Assembly (NCBI RefSeq): GCF_014359565.1
Contig: NZ_JACIZD010000001.1
Span: 558,001-622,000, forward strand
Reading direction: 5' to 3'
Source: Immundisolibacter sp.
Lineage (GTDB): Bacteria > Pseudomonadota > Gammaproteobacteria > Immundisolibacterales > Immundisolibacteraceae
DNA: 64,000 bases
A program made the translations under genes and the position numbers. Under the pieces are notes generated by a model, which had not been told where the DNA came from, made no database searches, and saw only the letters and a program-made list of their open reading frames with translations. How positions within the stretch are numbered: position 1 is the stretch's first letter; each line of letters begins with the position of its first letter. Positions 34,581 to 41,025 of this stretch are shown here, one piece after another.

Positions 34581-34898
34581 TCAGCAGGGAACTGGGTACC
34601 ACTTGCCGTTGAAATAGATCCATATGACGCATGGGCTTGCGAGCTTGAGCACCGTTCCCGGACTCAAGTTGCGAAGATTCCGGGCGATTTCCGGTGGCGA
34701 GTCGCTGGGCTGGATGGGCGCGCCGTCTGCGGTCCGTGGCTCGAGGTTGCCGTCCTTGTCGGGCACCAGCACGAACGGCAGGCCGGCAAAGGGATTGGCC
34801 TTCGGCTCCGCGGGCGGCTCCCCCTTGCCGCAGCCGGACAGGCCGGCACCGACCAGGCACATCGCCGCAGCGAGACTTGCCAGAGTGCGCTTTTTCAT
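34581..34898 (-). CDS. small lipoprotein of unknown function
   Basis: A 105-residue protein. MKKRTLASLAAAMCLVGAG is a lipoprotein signal ending in LSGC with Cys23. The mature part is short and Pro-rich, with no recognised domain. Two further cysteines near the end (SPCVIWIYFNGKWYPVPC) could form a disulfide. It lies 41 bases after the FecR-TPR-barrel gene on the same strand, so it may be co-transcribed with the cyclase system. Retention in the inner or outer membrane is not clear, as position +2 is Gly. Confidence 0.7.
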   Translation of the reverse strand: MKKRTLASLAAAMCLVGAGLSGCGKGEPPAEPKANPFAGLPFVLVPDKDGNLEPRTADGAPIQPSDSPPEIARNLRNLSPGTVLKLASPCVIWIYFNGKWYPVPC

Positions 34899-34939
34899 CG
34901 TCGCGTCGTCTCTCGGGTATGGGTTGATGGGTTGACGGG

Positions 34940-37900
34940 TCAGTCCAGCATCAGGCTGACGCTGGCATAGATCTGACGCCGGGGCTGCAGCTGCGGATTT
35001 TTTGGGTCGGTGTCCTGAAACTGCACCCGGGTATCGAACAGGTTTTGCACGCCCACGCTCACCAGCCCCAATCGACGCGGCAGGCGGTAGGCCAGGCGCG
35101 CGTCGCTCAGCCAGAAGCTGTCCTGCGCGTGACGGCGCTCGCCGCGGGTAGTGAACAAGAAATCGCCGCTTTGCCGATAGCCGGTGACAGCGAAATCGGC
35201 CAACCACCCCGACGGGTGACTGTAGCGCACCGCCAGCGGCAGGCTGTGGGTGCGCAGGTCAAGGATGCCCCAGTTGCCGGACTCGACGATCAGCGGGAAA
35301 TCTTCTCGGTACCTGTCCTTCTGGTAGAGGTACTCGGCGCGCAGCGCCCAGCGCGGGGCGGCTGCCCAGTACGCGTACAGCCGGTGCAGTTGCTGATGGG
35401 CGTCGCTGAGTTGCCGACCGGCCAGAAAATCCAGATAAGGCATCCTCAAATCACGCCAGGTCGCCTCCATGCCGACGTCGAGTCCATCGGCCAACCGCCG
35501 GTCGAGACCCAGCGCATAGCGGTCGCTGCGCGTGCCGATCACGTCGTCGAAGAACTGCACGAAGCCGGCCACCTGCACCGGCTCGATGGTGCCCTTGCCG
35601 ATCAGCGCCCGGTCGACCGACCGCAGTACCGCGGCCCGCAGCGTGGTGCGCTCGTCGAGCGTCCAGACCAGCCCAAGCTTGGGGCTGATGCGGGTCTTGT
35701 CGATGACGTCTGCGTCCACCGCATCCACCGCCAGCCCCAAGGTCCATCGCATGCCGGCGGGCCCGCCCAGATAGCCGTAGGCGTAACCGGTGTGGTAACG
35801 CGTGCGTTGATCGAGCACGAGGCCGTTGATGTCGATGTTGCCGTTCTCGCGGTAATAGCCACCGCCCAGCAGCAGACGGCTGTCAGTACCGCGGATCAGC
35901 TGCTGCGCCTCGGCCAACAAGGGCTCAGTGGCGCCGCGGTTTTTGACCGGGAGCGTGATCGGCCCGACCGGCAGCACGATGTCGACATCGAAATCCTGCC
36001 CCTCATCCACGCGCTCGCGCTGCACCGACACCAGCGTGCTGTTGCCGGGCGCCCAGTCGTGCCGCAGGCCCAGGCGATAGGTGTCGCGATCCCGGAACTG
36101 GCGCAGCGTTGGCGAAGCCACATCGTCGAACGGGTACAGGCCGATGTCGCCGCGCTCCTCGCGGCTGCGTCGCGCCTCGACCTGCACGCTGGTATCCGGC
36201 GTCACGCGCCAGTGGGCGAACAGGTCGTATAGGTCGATCTTCTGGTCGGCGTTGTCCCGAAAGCCGTCGGTTTCGTAATGAAACTGCGCCGCCGAAATCG
36301 ACAGCGGCCCGGCCAGCACGGTGGCCATCAGATCGTCGCTGAACAGGTCATCGCCGCCGCCGACGGCGCTTGCCAGCGCCGTTACCCCATCGCGCACGAA
36401 CAGCGGCGTGTACTCGTTCAGGCCGCTTTGCAGCGACACCGCGCCCTGGCGGATGGCCAGATCCTCGGCGCGCGCCTGCGGTTGCAGCGGCAGCACGCTT
36501 TGTGGCTGCCACAGCTGGGCCTGCAGGAGCTCCGACAGGCGGCCGGTTTCGTGATCGGGCACGCCCAGATAACTGTCGGCCAGCAGGCGATGGGCGGAAA
36601 AATCGGCAGGATCGGCGGCCAGCGATTCCGCGCCGCGCCGCTGCGCCAGCTGGCTGAAACCGAGAGCCTCGTAGACACGGCCGGCGCCCGCCTGACGCGC
36701 CGCGAGGTCCTCGTCCAGCTGCAGCTGCGAGCGGTAGACGGCGCGGTTGTCATTGCGTTTCACGGATTCTTCGAGCGAGGCCAGGGCCTCGACCGGCCGG
36801 TTGTCGGCCAGCAGGCCGAGCGCCTCGTAGAACCACGGCGTCGGGTCGGCCGGGTCGAGGGCCTTGGCGCGGCCCAGTTCGGCCTGTGCCGGATGGCTGC
36901 GCTGCTCCGACAGGTAGGCCTTGGCCAGATAGCTGCGCAGCAGGGACTGGCCCGGATCGAGACTGACCGCGATCTCCATCTGCCGGCGTCCGGCGGCCAG
37001 CCGGTTCTGGCGGATCAGCGCCAGGCCCAGGCCCAGACGCGACAGCGGGTCCAGCGGATCGAGCGCTGCCGCCTGCTCGAAACTCGCCTGCGCGGACGCC
37101 GCGTCATCGGCTGCCAGATCGGCGAAGCCGAGCGTGCGCAGCGCCAGCGCTGCCTGCGGTCCGCGCACGGCCGGCTGCGCCAAGCGGCGCGCTGCCCGGT
37201 AATTGCCGCTGGCCAGCTCCAGTTCGGCCAGGCGCAGGGTAGGCAGCTCATCGCCCTTCGCTAACTCGGCGGCGCGCGCCGCCGAGCGCCGGGCCGCCGG
37301 CAGGTCGAACAGCGCCTGCTGGGCATATGAGCGTGCCAGCCAGGCATTGGGCTGATCGCCGGCCAGCGTGACCGCCTCGGCACTGAACCGGTCGGCGGCG
37401 GCCGTATCGCCCTGGGCAATCGCGATCACCGTCTGCAAGGCCCGCGCCTGCGCCCGTTCGGCCGGCCCGGCCTCGCTCGCCGCCGTCTCGGCAAGTTGCG
37501 CCGCGGCCCCGGCATCGCCCGCGGCCAGCCGCGCCTGTGCCTCGCGCAGGGCAGCCGTCGTGGCCAGCGGCGGGTAATGGAGCGCCCACTCCAGGCCCTC
37601 GCGGCTGCGGACTGCCAGGCGCAGCTCACTGCCGCCGGGGCTCACACGCAGGCTCTGGCCGGGCACCAGTTGCCGGCCCTCGACCGTCACCCGGCCCTCG
37701 AACAGCGCCAGCTCGTCGGCTGCGGGCGCCGCAACGAGCAGGAACTCCGTGCCGTCGATGGCGGCATTCAGGTACGGCGTCGAGGCATCGAAACGCTGGC
37801 GGGTGCGGCTCAGAAAGTGCCCGCGGCCGCGCTCGATGCGTACCGTCGGCGTGGCTGCGTTGGGGTGCCGGCGAATGGACACGGCGCTCAGGCCGCCCAG

Positions 37901-38164
37901 GCGCAGGAGGGTGTCGTTCGCCAGTTCGAGCGCCGCGCTGCCGCCGTCGCCGACGCGTACCGACACATCCTCACAGAAGGTCTCGCCGACGGCTGCCGGG
38001 CGCCAGTCGGCGTGTGCCACCCGCTGCGCCTCGACCTGGCCGTGGGCGCTGGCCAGCCGGGCCAGCTGATGCTCGCAGGCCTGCGCCGTCGCCACACCCA
38101 GCAGGTACAGCAGCACGCCGGCAGCTGCGGCCGGGCGCCGGAAATTCCCAGTCAATACCGCCAT
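34940..38164 (-). CDS. FecR-TPR-outer-membrane beta-barrel fusion protein
   Basis: A 1074-residue exported protein with three visible parts. A signal peptide (residues 1-28, AAAAGVLLYLLGVATAQA) leads into a FecR-like domain (about 45-165) containing VRVGDGGSAALELANDTLLR and TPYLNAAIDGTEFLLV. Tetratricopeptide-like Ala/Leu-rich repeats fill about 205-480. From about 540 to the end, alternating aromatic beta strands resemble a TonB-dependent-receptor barrel, ending GLVSVGVQNLFDTRVQFQD and YASVSLMLD. No plug domain or TonB box is seen. ATG 38164 has an AGGG site close upstream; an ATG/GTG further up is possible. Function is inferred as an outer-membrane sensor, scaffold or exporter. It is 77 bases after the cyclase gene. 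Confidence 0.8.
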   Translation of the reverse strand: MAVLTGNFRRPAAAAGVLLYLLGVATAQACEHQLARLASAHGQVEAQRVAHADWRPAAVGETFCEDVSVRVGDGGSAALELANDTLLRLGGLSAVSIRRHPNAATPTVRIERGRGHFLSRTRQRFDASTPYLNAAIDGTEFLLVAAPAADELALFEGRVTVEGRQLVPGQSLRVSPGGSELRLAVRSREGLEWALHYPPLATTAALREAQARLAAGDAGAAAQLAETAASEAGPAERAQARALQTVIAIAQGDTAAADRFSAEAVTLAGDQPNAWLARSYAQQALFDLPAARRSAARAAELAKGDELPTLRLAELELASGNYRAARRLAQPAVRGPQAALALRTLGFADLAADDAASAQASFEQAAALDPLDPLSRLGLGLALIRQNRLAAGRRQMEIAVSLDPGQSLLRSYLAKAYLSEQRSHPAQAELGRAKALDPADPTPWFYEALGLLADNRPVEALASLEESVKRNDNRAVYRSQLQLDEDLAARQAGAGRVYEALGFSQLAQRRGAESLAADPADFSAHRLLADSYLGVPDHETGRLSELLQAQLWQPQSVLPLQPQARAEDLAIRQGAVSLQSGLNEYTPLFVRDGVTALASAVGGGDDLFSDDLMATVLAGPLSISAAQFHYETDGFRDNADQKIDLYDLFAHWRVTPDTSVQVEARRSREERGDIGLYPFDDVASPTLRQFRDRDTYRLGLRHDWAPGNSTLVSVQRERVDEGQDFDVDIVLPVGPITLPVKNRGATEPLLAEAQQLIRGTDSRLLLGGGYYRENGNIDINGLVLDQRTRYHTGYAYGYLGGPAGMRWTLGLAVDAVDADVIDKTRISPKLGLVWTLDERTTLRAAVLRSVDRALIGKGTIEPVQVAGFVQFFDDVIGTRSDRYALGLDRRLADGLDVGMEATWRDLRMPYLDFLAGRQLSDAHQQLHRLYAYWAAAPRWALRAEYLYQKDRYREDFPLIVESGNWGILDLRTHSLPLAVRYSHPSGWLADFAVTGYRQSGDFLFTTRGERRHAQDSFWLSDARLAYRLPRRLGLVSVGVQNLFDTRVQFQDTDPKNPQLQPRRQIYASVSLMLD

Positions 38165-38241
38165 CTCCCTGAAATTTATTCTTGTGGGATGAGCGCTGGC
38201 GGGCTGTCCGCCGCGCGTCACGGCGATCGGTCGCAGCCCGG

Positions 38242-40338
38242 CTACTTGGGCACCACGATCACGCCGTCCTTGGGCAGCTTATCACCCAGCCCCTGCAGCA
38301 GCCCATGCAGGATTTTGAGGTAGAAGGCGGCCACCGTGTCACCCGGGTCGATCGCCAGCGCCGCCTGAAAGTCACGCCGCGCGCTGACGGCATCGCCGGC
38401 CTGGAAGGCGCCCAGCGCCGCCGCAAACGGCGCTCGCGCAGCGGCCTGCGCAGCGCTGGGTACGGGCAGCAGCTCATGGATATCGAGGGCCTGCGCCTTG
38501 CCGGCCAGCTGGAAGCGCCCGAGGCGCCGATGGTCGATTCCCGGCAGCCCGCTGATGGTCGCCGCGCTGGCCAGTATCCGGGTGCCCAGATGCTTGTTCA
38601 GGCCCTCGATGCGACTGGCGGTGTTCACCGCGTCGCCGATGGCGCGGTACTCGAAGTGATCGAGCGCACCGACCGGACCGAGCATCAGCTCGCCGACGTG
38701 CAGGCCGATGCGGGTGGGCAGCCCGCCGCCGCCGGGCACCTCGAACGCCGTCAAAACCGCCTGAATGTCCAGTGCGGCCCGGCATGCCCGCAGCCGCTGC
38801 GCGAGGTTCGCGCGCTTGATCGGCCACAGCGCCAGCGCCGAATCACCCACGATGTCGGTCACCATGCCGCCGTGGGCGCTGATGGGCGCCAGCAGGGTCG
38901 CGTAGTAGCGGTTCATCAGCTCGCGCAGCTGGCCGGGCGGCAGGTGTTCTGCCAGCGTCGCGTAGCCAGCAGCGTCGCTGACCAGACATACCGCCTGTTG
39001 TTGGGTGGCTGCCGGGCGGGCCGGCGCATCGGCGCTGGCTCGCGCGATCTGACGCACGACGTGGGCCGGCAGATAGTGGCGAAACTCGGCCGCCACCTGC
39101 GCCCGCTCGCGGCCGCTGTGGCGGGCACGCAGGGCCAGCGCGCCCAGCAGCGCGACCACGATCTGCGCCAGCCAGGGCGCCAGTGGCAGCCACAGATGGA
39201 GGTGACCGAAGGCAGTCAGCACCGCCATGCCGGCGCCGCCGGCCAGCCCCAGCGCCAGGGCGCCGGCGGCTGGCGGGCGCAAGGGCATGAACGCGCCGGC
39301 CAGCCCCAGCGCGGTGAGCAGCAAGCCGGCAGTCACGGCGAGCGGCGAGGCCGGCACCAGAAACTCGTTCCGCAGCGCATTCAGGTACGCCGTCGCGGCA
39401 ATCTCGACCCCCGACAGATCAAGCCCGTCGGGGCGGCTGACGGCGGTCAGGAAGCTGTCGGTCTGGTTCGGAAAATACGGCTCGACGTGGCCGACGAATA
39501 CCGCCCGGCCGGCCAGATCGGGCGCCTCGCCCGCCAAGACATCGGCCGCCGACACGATGCGCACACTGCGCGGCGGCCCGTAGAAATTGAGCATCCGTTC
39601 CTGCGGGCCGCGCGCGAGCTCACAGGCTGCCCGCTGCACGGGCGTTGCCGCTGCGCCGACTGGACAATCGATGTCGCCGGCCTGCACCCGCAGCGCGGCG
39701 GCCGGCAGCGTGGCCAGGCCAGGCGCCGCCGGGTGCTGGACCCAGACCGTATCCACGCGCGCCGGGGACTTGGGCAGCACGAAGGGCGCCACCGCCGCCG
39801 CGGCATCGGCAAAGGCACTGTACGGTCGGTGCAGGGTGTCGATTTGCAACTGCGCGTCGGCTCCGGCACCGGGCAGGGCCTGCACCTGGCGCTTCATCTG
39901 CCCGAACAGCACCACGTTGCCGGCCTCGGCGATGGCGGAGGCCAGCGCCGCATCGCCATCACCCAGGCGTGCCCGGGCGAAGAACACGTCGATCGCAATC
40001 ACGCTGGCCCCGCCCGCGGCTGCGCGCCGGATCAGCTCGGCGTAAATACGCCGCGGCCAGTCGGCAAAGCGCGACGGCAGCCCAAGACGCGCTGCCGACG
40101 AACTGTCGATGGCGAAGATCACCGCTTCGGCCGGCTCAGGCAGCGGACCGCGACTGGCAAACAGCCACGGCAGGGTCAATTCACGCTCCAGTCGGTCGGC
40201 GCCGGGCAGTTGCCAGGCCGCAAGCCCGGCCACCCATGCCGCCGTCGCCAACAACAGACCCTGCCGCAATACGCGGCGGCGCCCTGCGCCGCGGGTTTGC
40301 GTCGCGCCAACTTCGGGCCAGATAATCGCGCGATTCAC
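38242..40338 (-). CDS. CHASE2-domain class III adenylate/guanylate cyclase
   Basis: A 698-residue membrane protein. TM1 is near residues 25-40, a periplasmic CHASE2 sensor at about 45-340, then three predicted membrane segments (about 345-430). The class III cyclase domain is at about 440-620: the first metal Asp is in VCLVSDAAGY, the second in DIVGDSALALW, and the Asn/Arg pair in GDAVNTASRIE. The usual substrate Lys four residues before the second Asp is Asp here. Helical C-terminal residues follow. The start GTG at 40338 has GGGAG five bases upstream. The CRP-type gene begins 33 bases away, divergently. Confidence 0.88.
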   Translation of the reverse strand: MNRAIIWPEVGATQTRGAGRRRVLRQGLLLATAAWVAGLAAWQLPGADRLERELTLPWLFASRGPLPEPAEAVIFAIDSSSAARLGLPSRFADWPRRIYAELIRRAAAGGASVIAIDVFFARARLGDGDAALASAIAEAGNVVLFGQMKRQVQALPGAGADAQLQIDTLHRPYSAFADAAAAVAPFVLPKSPARVDTVWVQHPAAPGLATLPAAALRVQAGDIDCPVGAAATPVQRAACELARGPQERMLNFYGPPRSVRIVSAADVLAGEAPDLAGRAVFVGHVEPYFPNQTDSFLTAVSRPDGLDLSGVEIAATAYLNALRNEFLVPASPLAVTAGLLLTALGLAGAFMPLRPPAAGALALGLAGGAGMAVLTAFGHLHLWLPLAPWLAQIVVALLGALALRARHSGRERAQVAAEFRHYLPAHVVRQIARASADAPARPAATQQQAVCLVSDAAGYATLAEHLPPGQLRELMNRYYATLLAPISAHGGMVTDIVGDSALALWPIKRANLAQRLRACRAALDIQAVLTAFEVPGGGGLPTRIGLHVGELMLGPVGALDHFEYRAIGDAVNTASRIEGLNKHLGTRILASAATISGLPGIDHRRLGRFQLAGKAQALDIHELLPVPSAAQAAARAPFAAALGAFQAGDAVSARRDFQAALAIDPGDTVAAFYLKILHGLLQGLGDKLPKDGVIVVPK

Positions 40339-40371
40339 ACCATCTCCCGCTTTGGCGCCAGCGCACGGTCC

Positions 40372-41025
40372 ATGTTGTCGCAACTGGCACAGTTTTCCAT
40401 TCTGCAGCCCCTGTCGGATGCCGACCTGCAACGCCTGCTGCAACTTGGTCAGGTGCGCACGGCGCCCGCCGGCCACCTCCTGATCGGCGAGAACGAGGCC
40501 AGCACGGCAGTGTATTTCCTGCTCTCGGGCGAGGCGCGGGTGTTCATCACCGGCGCCGACGGCCGGGAAGCGACGGTCAATACCCTCAAGGCCGGCAGCT
40601 GGTTCGGCGAGCTGGCCATCCTGGGCGACGGGCTACGCTCGGCATCGGTCATCGCTACTGCTCCTTCGCGCCTGCTGAGCGTGCCAGGCCCGCTGCTGCG
40701 CGGCATCCTGGTGCGTTATCCGGAAGCGACCGAGCGTCTGCTCGAAACCCTCGGGCGGCGCATCCGCGGCTTGACCGAGACCGTGCGCGGCTTCGCGCTG
40801 GGCGATGTCTATCAGCGCCTGGCGCAGCTGTTTGGCGAGCTGGCGGTTGAGCGGGACGGCGAGCGCTTCATCCCCGATCCGCCGCCGCAGCGCGAGCTGG
40901 CGGCGCGCTGCGGCGCCTCGCGGGAGATGGTGGCACGGGTGCTGCGCGAGCTGCGCAAGGGCGGCTATGTCCAGACCAGCCGGCAGCGGATCGTGCTGAA
41001 AAAACCTTTGCCGGCGCGGTTTTGA
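40372..41025 (+). CDS. CRP/FNR-family cyclic-nucleotide-responsive regulator
   Basis: A 217-residue regulator. The N-terminal cNMP-binding domain has the phosphate-binding cassette FGELAILGDGLRSAS (78-92), with Arg89 and Ser90 matching the cAMP-contacting Arg-Ser of E. coli CRP. A long C-helix follows, then a helix-turn-helix ELAARCGASREMVARVLREL in which R184, E185 and R189 match the DNA-reading residues of CRP. It lacks FNR cysteines. Its cAMP may come from the divergent cyclase. A CRP-like site TGTGA-N6-TCACA was not found in the short shared promoter. Confidence 0.88.
   Translation: MLSQLAQFSILQPLSDADLQRLLQLGQVRTAPAGHLLIGENEASTAVYFLLSGEARVFITGADGREATVNTLKAGSWFGELAILGDGLRSASVIATAPSRLLSVPGPLLRGILVRYPEATERLLETLGRRIRGLTETVRGFALGDVYQRLAQLFGELAVERDGERFIPDPPPQRELAARCGASREMVARVLRELRKGGYVQTSRQRIVLKKPLPARF

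Follow-up and report, generated by a model that had tools for sequence, protein, structure and literature searches.

A putative trans-envelope receptor-cyclase-regulator module of the NsrA/CHASE2-cyclase/Clr kind in Immundisolibacter

Four adjacent genes in a 64,000-nucleotide stretch of an Immundisolibacter sp. genome (hereafter the window) probably encode a trans-envelope receptor-cyclase-regulator module of the NsrA/CHASE2-cyclase/Clr kind, a reading to which we give a probability of roughly 0.7. A signal would be taken at the outer membrane by an NsrA-like barrel, whose periplasmic FecR-TPR arm, perhaps gated by a small lipoprotein or binding it, would act on the CHASE2 domain of an inner-membrane cyclase. 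As a dimer, the cyclase is predicted to make a 3',5'-cyclic nucleotide, and a divergently encoded CRP-type regulator would bind this nucleotide and switch target promoters, probably including those of its own locus. Only tentatively do we propose the fuller version: a widespread NsrA-type module with a messenger other than cAMP (cGMP most likely), which is made by an Asp-Arg CHASE2 cyclase and read by its own divergent CRP, while the lipoprotein serves the plugless receptor barrel as ligand, gate or plug.

Gene content and conservation of the locus

The minus strand of the window holds, in one direction and with gaps of 77 and 41 nt, the genes for a CHASE2 class III nucleotide cyclase (38242..40339), an NsrA-family receptor of 1074 aa (34940..38164) and a small lipoprotein of 105 aa (34581..34898). 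On the plus strand a CRP-family regulator of 217 aa (40372..41025) is encoded divergently. The cyclase likely starts with the GTG at 40339 and the CRP starts at 40372. Given that only 32 nt (40340..40371) separate the divergent start codons, the promoters and any operator of both genes must overlap coding sequence. The sequence confirms the row of three genes with a divergent CRP described in the first-pass annotation, and the domains named there are all present, as identified by Pfam or, for the lipoprotein, by signal peptide and lipobox. Just within the cyclase start, at 40323-40334, lies a perfect 12-base palindrome, AATCGCGCGATT, for which relatives gave no common motif.

An orthologue search over 369 genomes of the class found cyclases of ~35-47% identity in ~35 genomes, and a scan of genome contigs gave at least 322 relatives, the best 80 of which were used. 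These best 80 of at least 322 span Chromatiales, Sedimenticola, Thiodiazotropha, Nitrosomonas, Nitrosospira, Skermanella and Deltaproteobacteria, together with a few MAGs labelled Nitrospirota, Nitrospinota or Rokubacteria, for which binning errors are possible. The 103 distinct loci compared come mostly from Gammaproteobacteria and also from Beta-, Alpha- and Deltaproteobacteria. In this sample, which is not random, 79 of the 90 loci whose sequence reaches far enough downstream have the receptor gene along with the cyclase, 71 of them downstream of the cyclase and in the same orientation. Upstream of the cyclase, 50 of 82 loci carry an orthologous CRP, which is divergent in 47. As the loci were picked via the cyclase, the linkage is not built in; over the 103 loci it is far above chance. 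Clustering of the neighbours revealed no further gene family common to more than 10 loci, and in the loci read the flanking DnaK, DnaJ, DapB and Rieske oxygenase genes adjoin the module in the same genus only. A lack of conservation outside close relatives had been named beforehand as grounds for abandoning the idea; the neighbourhood is widely conserved and the idea survives. Indeed, all four genes belong together, and the observation is hence stronger than first claimed. At four loci (L049, L064, L140 and L141) two receptor genes stand beside one cyclase gene, which suggests two inputs to one enzyme.

The cyclase, the regulator and the nature of the messenger

In the cyclase, Pfam identifies CHASE2 (E 2.6e-25) and Guanylate_cyc (E 3.4e-12). 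A first TM helix lies within residues 14-44 and is followed by a periplasmic CHASE2 domain (41-345), three further predicted TM helices (within 333-420), the catalytic domain (446-624) and C-terminal helical hairpins (630-684). The AlphaFold2 model (pLDDT 87.1) displays these same parts, namely a TM helix, CHASE2, three membrane-type helices, the catalytic domain and the hairpins. The two metal-binding aspartates (Asp456 and Asp500) and the transition-state Asn573 and Arg577, by which a class III cyclase is recognised, are present, and all catalytic residues are kept in the family.

The base-selecting pair of the window cyclase is Asp496/Arg566. Among 117 family sequences, some of which represent the same genome from two collections, 111 have Asp at position 496, 4 have Asn, 2 have Glu and none has Lys. 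Position 566 is Arg in 107 of the 114 that could be scored, and Asp and Arg occur together in 104 of 114. Among 29 other cyclases, CyaD1 included, 28 have Lys-Thr and one Arg-Arg; CyaD1 itself reads Lys-Thr and CyaK Lys-Ser. Considering these 28 of 29 controls and CyaK, the Asp-Arg change is, at the level of the sequences compared, specific to this cyclase family. A quick tree of the catalytic domains, informative for this split and not for the inner order, separates the Lys-Thr controls from the family with a support of 100; it suggests repeated changes of Asp-Arg in the delta/Nitrospirota lines. Two Skermanella members (L116 and L137) carry Asp-Ser at the base-selecting positions, and a different CRP-type gene immediately precedes them in the same orientation.

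Class III cyclases choose adenine by Lys with Asp or Thr, and guanylyl cyclases have Glu and Cys (PMC4886424). The window cyclase thus lacks the adenylyl combination of Lys with Thr or Asp; compared to the guanylyl pattern, an acidic residue (usually Glu) with Cys, the acid is present as Asp and its partner is Arg rather than Cys. A Glu-Lys/Arg pair at these positions has been predicted to be guanylyl-type, the basic residue bonding O6 (PMC4886424), and Asp accepting from N1-H/N2-H with Arg donating to O6/N7 would likewise suit guanine. Counting against cGMP, the proven bacterial guanylyl cyclase XC_0250 has a different residue set (PMC3770947). Given the guanylyl-like acid at the Lys position, and a pair that is Asp-Arg instead of Lys-Thr/Asp, the cAMP assumed in the first-pass annotation is doubtful. 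Our leading guess for the product, at slightly better than even odds, is cGMP; cAMP is unlikely, and a product that is neither of the two more unlikely still. In the window genome, 100% complete according to its tag, this enzyme is the single class III cyclase found, and no class I cyclase was found. Hence, if it makes cGMP, no cAMP-making cyclase of class I or III is left in the genome.

The regulator matches cNMP_binding (2.2e-20) and HTH_Crp_2 (5.1e-12) in Pfam, with a nucleotide pocket formed by G79-E80 and R89/S90 and the recognition helix SREMVARV. Its orthologues keep the pocket motifs FGEL and RSAS, and GEL/RSA is near-invariant. The Arg-Ser pair that was described at first as cAMP-contacting is present, but in E. 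coli CRP this pair contacts the cyclic phosphate, so by itself it is not cAMP-specific and does not tell cAMP from cGMP. While GEL/RSA agrees with cAMP-binding CRPs, the C-helix pair is L134/T135, at the positions of E. coli T127/S128, versus Thr-Ser/Thr; the family reads Leu-Thr there. The Thr at the S128 position would fit cAMP as well as cGMP. The window CRP has neither the Asn by which PycTIR reads uracil of cUMP nor the Glu with which XC_0249 binds cGMP (PMC11224242). Clr, with Thr140-Thr141, is activated by both cAMP and cGMP, and cAMP alone activates E. coli CRP (PMC10127613). The genome contains seven cNMP-domain matches, six of them over the cut-off and one being the window CRP; the other proteins could also read the messenger.

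A plain cAMP circuit as in the alfalfa symbiont Sinorhizobium meliloti, with an adenylyl cyclase in which Asp-Arg exchanges the two members of the ion pair without consequence, would agree with the Thr kept by the CRP at the S128 position and with the homologous CyaD1/CyaK pathway, reported to work via cAMP (PMC13001267). However, neither homologue has made such a swap, and the complete absence of Lys at position 496 from the family speaks against it; we regard this explanation as rather unlikely.

It is less probable again that the receptor-cyclase module and the CRP are separate, the latter being a local regulator that does not read the messenger. The CRP/FNR family does include members that do not bind a nucleotide. 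Each of the 59 scored loci with an orthologous CRP has an Asp-Arg cyclase, a count confounded by phylogeny, and the ten members departing from Asp-Arg have no orthologous CRP. Over the scorable loci the association (59:24 with Asp-Arg vs 0:5, Fisher p 0.003) follows lineage and is weak evidence. The 24 Asp-Arg loci without an orthologous CRP nearby indicate that the CRP is not obligatory, and they favour separation. So does the operator search: no shared operator was found with CRP-type palindromes and symmetric-motif EM in 54 divergent regions (46 once near-copies were taken out), where the signal was AT-rich and promoter-like only. On the other hand, the near-invariance of the GEL/RSA pocket and the recurrent, mostly divergent position of the CRP upstream of the cyclase argue for a regulator that belongs to the module.

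The receptor and its lipoprotein neighbour

The receptor consists of a signal peptide (1-29), a FecR domain (35-182), a TPR solenoid (187-565) and a barrel (593-1073), with Pfam matches to FecR (6.7e-9), TPR and the TonB-dependent barrel (3e-10) and none to a Plug domain. The AlphaFold2 model (pLDDT 83.5, pTM 0.81) displays a beta FecR domain and a long TPR solenoid, which forms an arm directly N-terminal of the C-terminal barrel. The barrel is modelled as a plugless beta barrel of the TonB-receptor type with ~22 strands, and its top Foldseek matches are the TonB-dependent receptors FpvA, FptA and OprC. Judged by profile comparison, the window receptor is homologous to NsrA over its full length: its family aligns with the S. 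meliloti NsrA family with an hhalign E of 3.2e-44 over 1005 columns, and hmmsearch gives an E of 1.1e-55. The window receptor as tblastn query on plasmids gave no match, and a Skermanella homologue was needed as a bridge to reach NsrA. NsrA is missing from the S. meliloti Ak57 chromosome record because nsrA sits on pSymB.

The FecR domain and the TonB-receptor-like barrel are reminiscent of iron-type surface signalling (FecA/FecR/FecI), with the cyclase as an accidental neighbour. That system uses a plug-bearing TonB receptor with an ECF sigma partner. In the window, however, the FecR domain is fused to the barrel protein, Pfam detects no Plug, the cyclase linkage is strict and no shared sigma-factor neighbour was seen in the neighbour clusters; this explanation was rejected as very improbable. 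A Pycsar-like defence system, in which a pyrimidine cyclase works with a cNMP-binding effector, was rejected as the least credible of all: the catalytic domain is matched by PADLOC PycC models (E 2.1e-20) and the CRP nucleotide domain by PycTIR models (E 1.1e-16), but both matches reflect shared folds. In place of a TIR or TM effector, the partner is a DNA-binding CRP with an HTH; the window CRP has Thr where PycTIR has the Asn that reads uracil (PMC11224242), and sensor and receptor are envelope proteins.

The small lipoprotein has a clear signal peptide, the lipobox LSGC and a C-terminal end of the form SPC-VIWIYFNGKWYPVP-C. It is probably located in the outer membrane and matches no Pfam or NCBIfam family above cut-off. 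With tblastn, matches were obtained in the genus only, and a genus-specific protein was considered; a lipobox scan and a profile search overturned this. Indeed, the scan found a small lipoprotein ORF directly after the receptor in 21 of 62 loci versus 1 of 535 control windows. When a profile built from 17 scan-found lipoproteins was run on the small six-frame ORFs of all loci (16,363 in number), 37 matched at E<1e-3, each of the 37 just after an NsrA-like receptor and 18 of them not seeds. The profile thereby places the family in 32 of 62 loci. Its members, mostly 100-150 aa long, are fast-diverging and unnamed, and the profile matches them only beside an NsrA-like receptor; as its ligand, gate or plug, the lipoprotein would be a partner of that receptor. 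They share a C-terminal motif with Cys...Cys or His...His, e.g. GSCYY...PLPxxC and GSHYY...LPH. This pairwise swap would be in line with a site that binds a metal or haem, or that forms a disulfide in part of the family. Behind the receptor of four loci (L060, L069, L100 and L120), the lipoprotein gene is present in two consecutive copies.

At a single locus (L063), an exported small protein (L063:2448-2822) ends in ...LSTAEMGEIKGG-ACYYLMYIAGRYYQISLPNSYCS, a double-glycine-like site and then a peptide. About 16 of 22 peptide residues are identical to the end of the receptor-adjacent lipoprotein on the same contig, where an ORF for a C39-like peptidase is also found (L063:3936-4646). Possibly a secreted peptide is mimicked by the lipoprotein here; being based on one locus, this double-glycine peptide reading is kept as a lead.

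To our knowledge, very few systems of cGMP signalling in bacteria are known. Should the Asp-Arg cyclases produce cGMP, a dedicated cGMP circuit with an outer-membrane receptor would exist in dozens of lineages, sulfur-oxidising symbionts, ammonia oxidisers and hydrocarbon-site bacteria among them. Furthermore, NsrA is no longer a lone symbiosis gene but belongs to a broad family of receptors. A putative lipoprotein partner can now be named for this family, and its role in a trans-envelope signal becomes directly testable.

Comparison with known systems

In S. meliloti, the perception of plant signals requires NsrA, which acts upstream of the CHASE2 cyclases CyaK and CyaD1/D2; the messenger is read by Clr (PMC7529298, PMC13001267). 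Like the window receptor, NsrA has FecR and TPR domains by Pfam and a published C-terminal barrel at residues 600-1200 (PMC7529298). On pSymB, nsrA is annotated directly upstream of cyaK with a one-base overlap, and the nsrA-cyaK order recurs in S. terangae, S. fredii and Neorhizobium. A chromosomal cluster of S. meliloti contains clr, cyaD1, a FecR gene, a gene for a small exported protein and a phosphodiesterase gene (PMC5498481). The window shares with this system a receptor next to a CHASE2 cyclase and a CRP-type output, and it encodes the parts that characterise the kind, that is an NsrA-homologous receptor, an adjacent CHASE2 cyclase and a Crp-type regulator with a predicted nucleotide pocket; in such a pathway the receptor would raise the cyclic nucleotide in response to a signal. 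As genetics places the homologous S. meliloti proteins in the order NsrA, CHASE2 cyclases, Clr, the closed envelope-to-CRP circuit of the first-pass annotation is plausible as one conserved module, whereas its cAMP part is doubtful given the Asp-Arg pair. The window differs in having cyclase, receptor, lipoprotein and divergent CRP at one locus, in Asp-Arg versus Lys-Thr/Ser in the cyclase and in Leu-Thr versus Thr-Thr in the regulator. In the Sinorhizobium loci, the profile search detected no member of the lipoprotein family. One record, CP090106.1 (L156, L162 and L163), labelled S. meliloti pSymB and 3.7 Mb in size, has rpsA, lepA, cmk and pgi; it looks like the chromosome under the wrong name.

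In Campylobacterota, a CHASE2 cyclase is likewise linked to a FecR-domain outer-membrane protein; that cluster differs by a separate TPR protein and a phosphodiesterase, and neither CRP nor lipoprotein is reported in it (PMC9239204). XC_0250/XC_0249 of Xanthomonas resemble the window in linking a class III cyclase to a cNMP-domain protein, but the cGMP pathways of Xanthomonas and R. centenum differ in domain make-up and active-site residues, and no envelope receptor is described for them (PMC3770947). With the NsrA-CyaK/CyaD1/D2-Clr pathway already published and the Campylobacterota CHASE2-FecR cluster noted (PMC9239204), the initial description of the locus as an undescribed system does not hold. 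The kind of system is known; what is new, to the extent of the open literature searched, is the Asp-Arg class of cyclases, the divergent CRP linked to them and the family of the lipoprotein.
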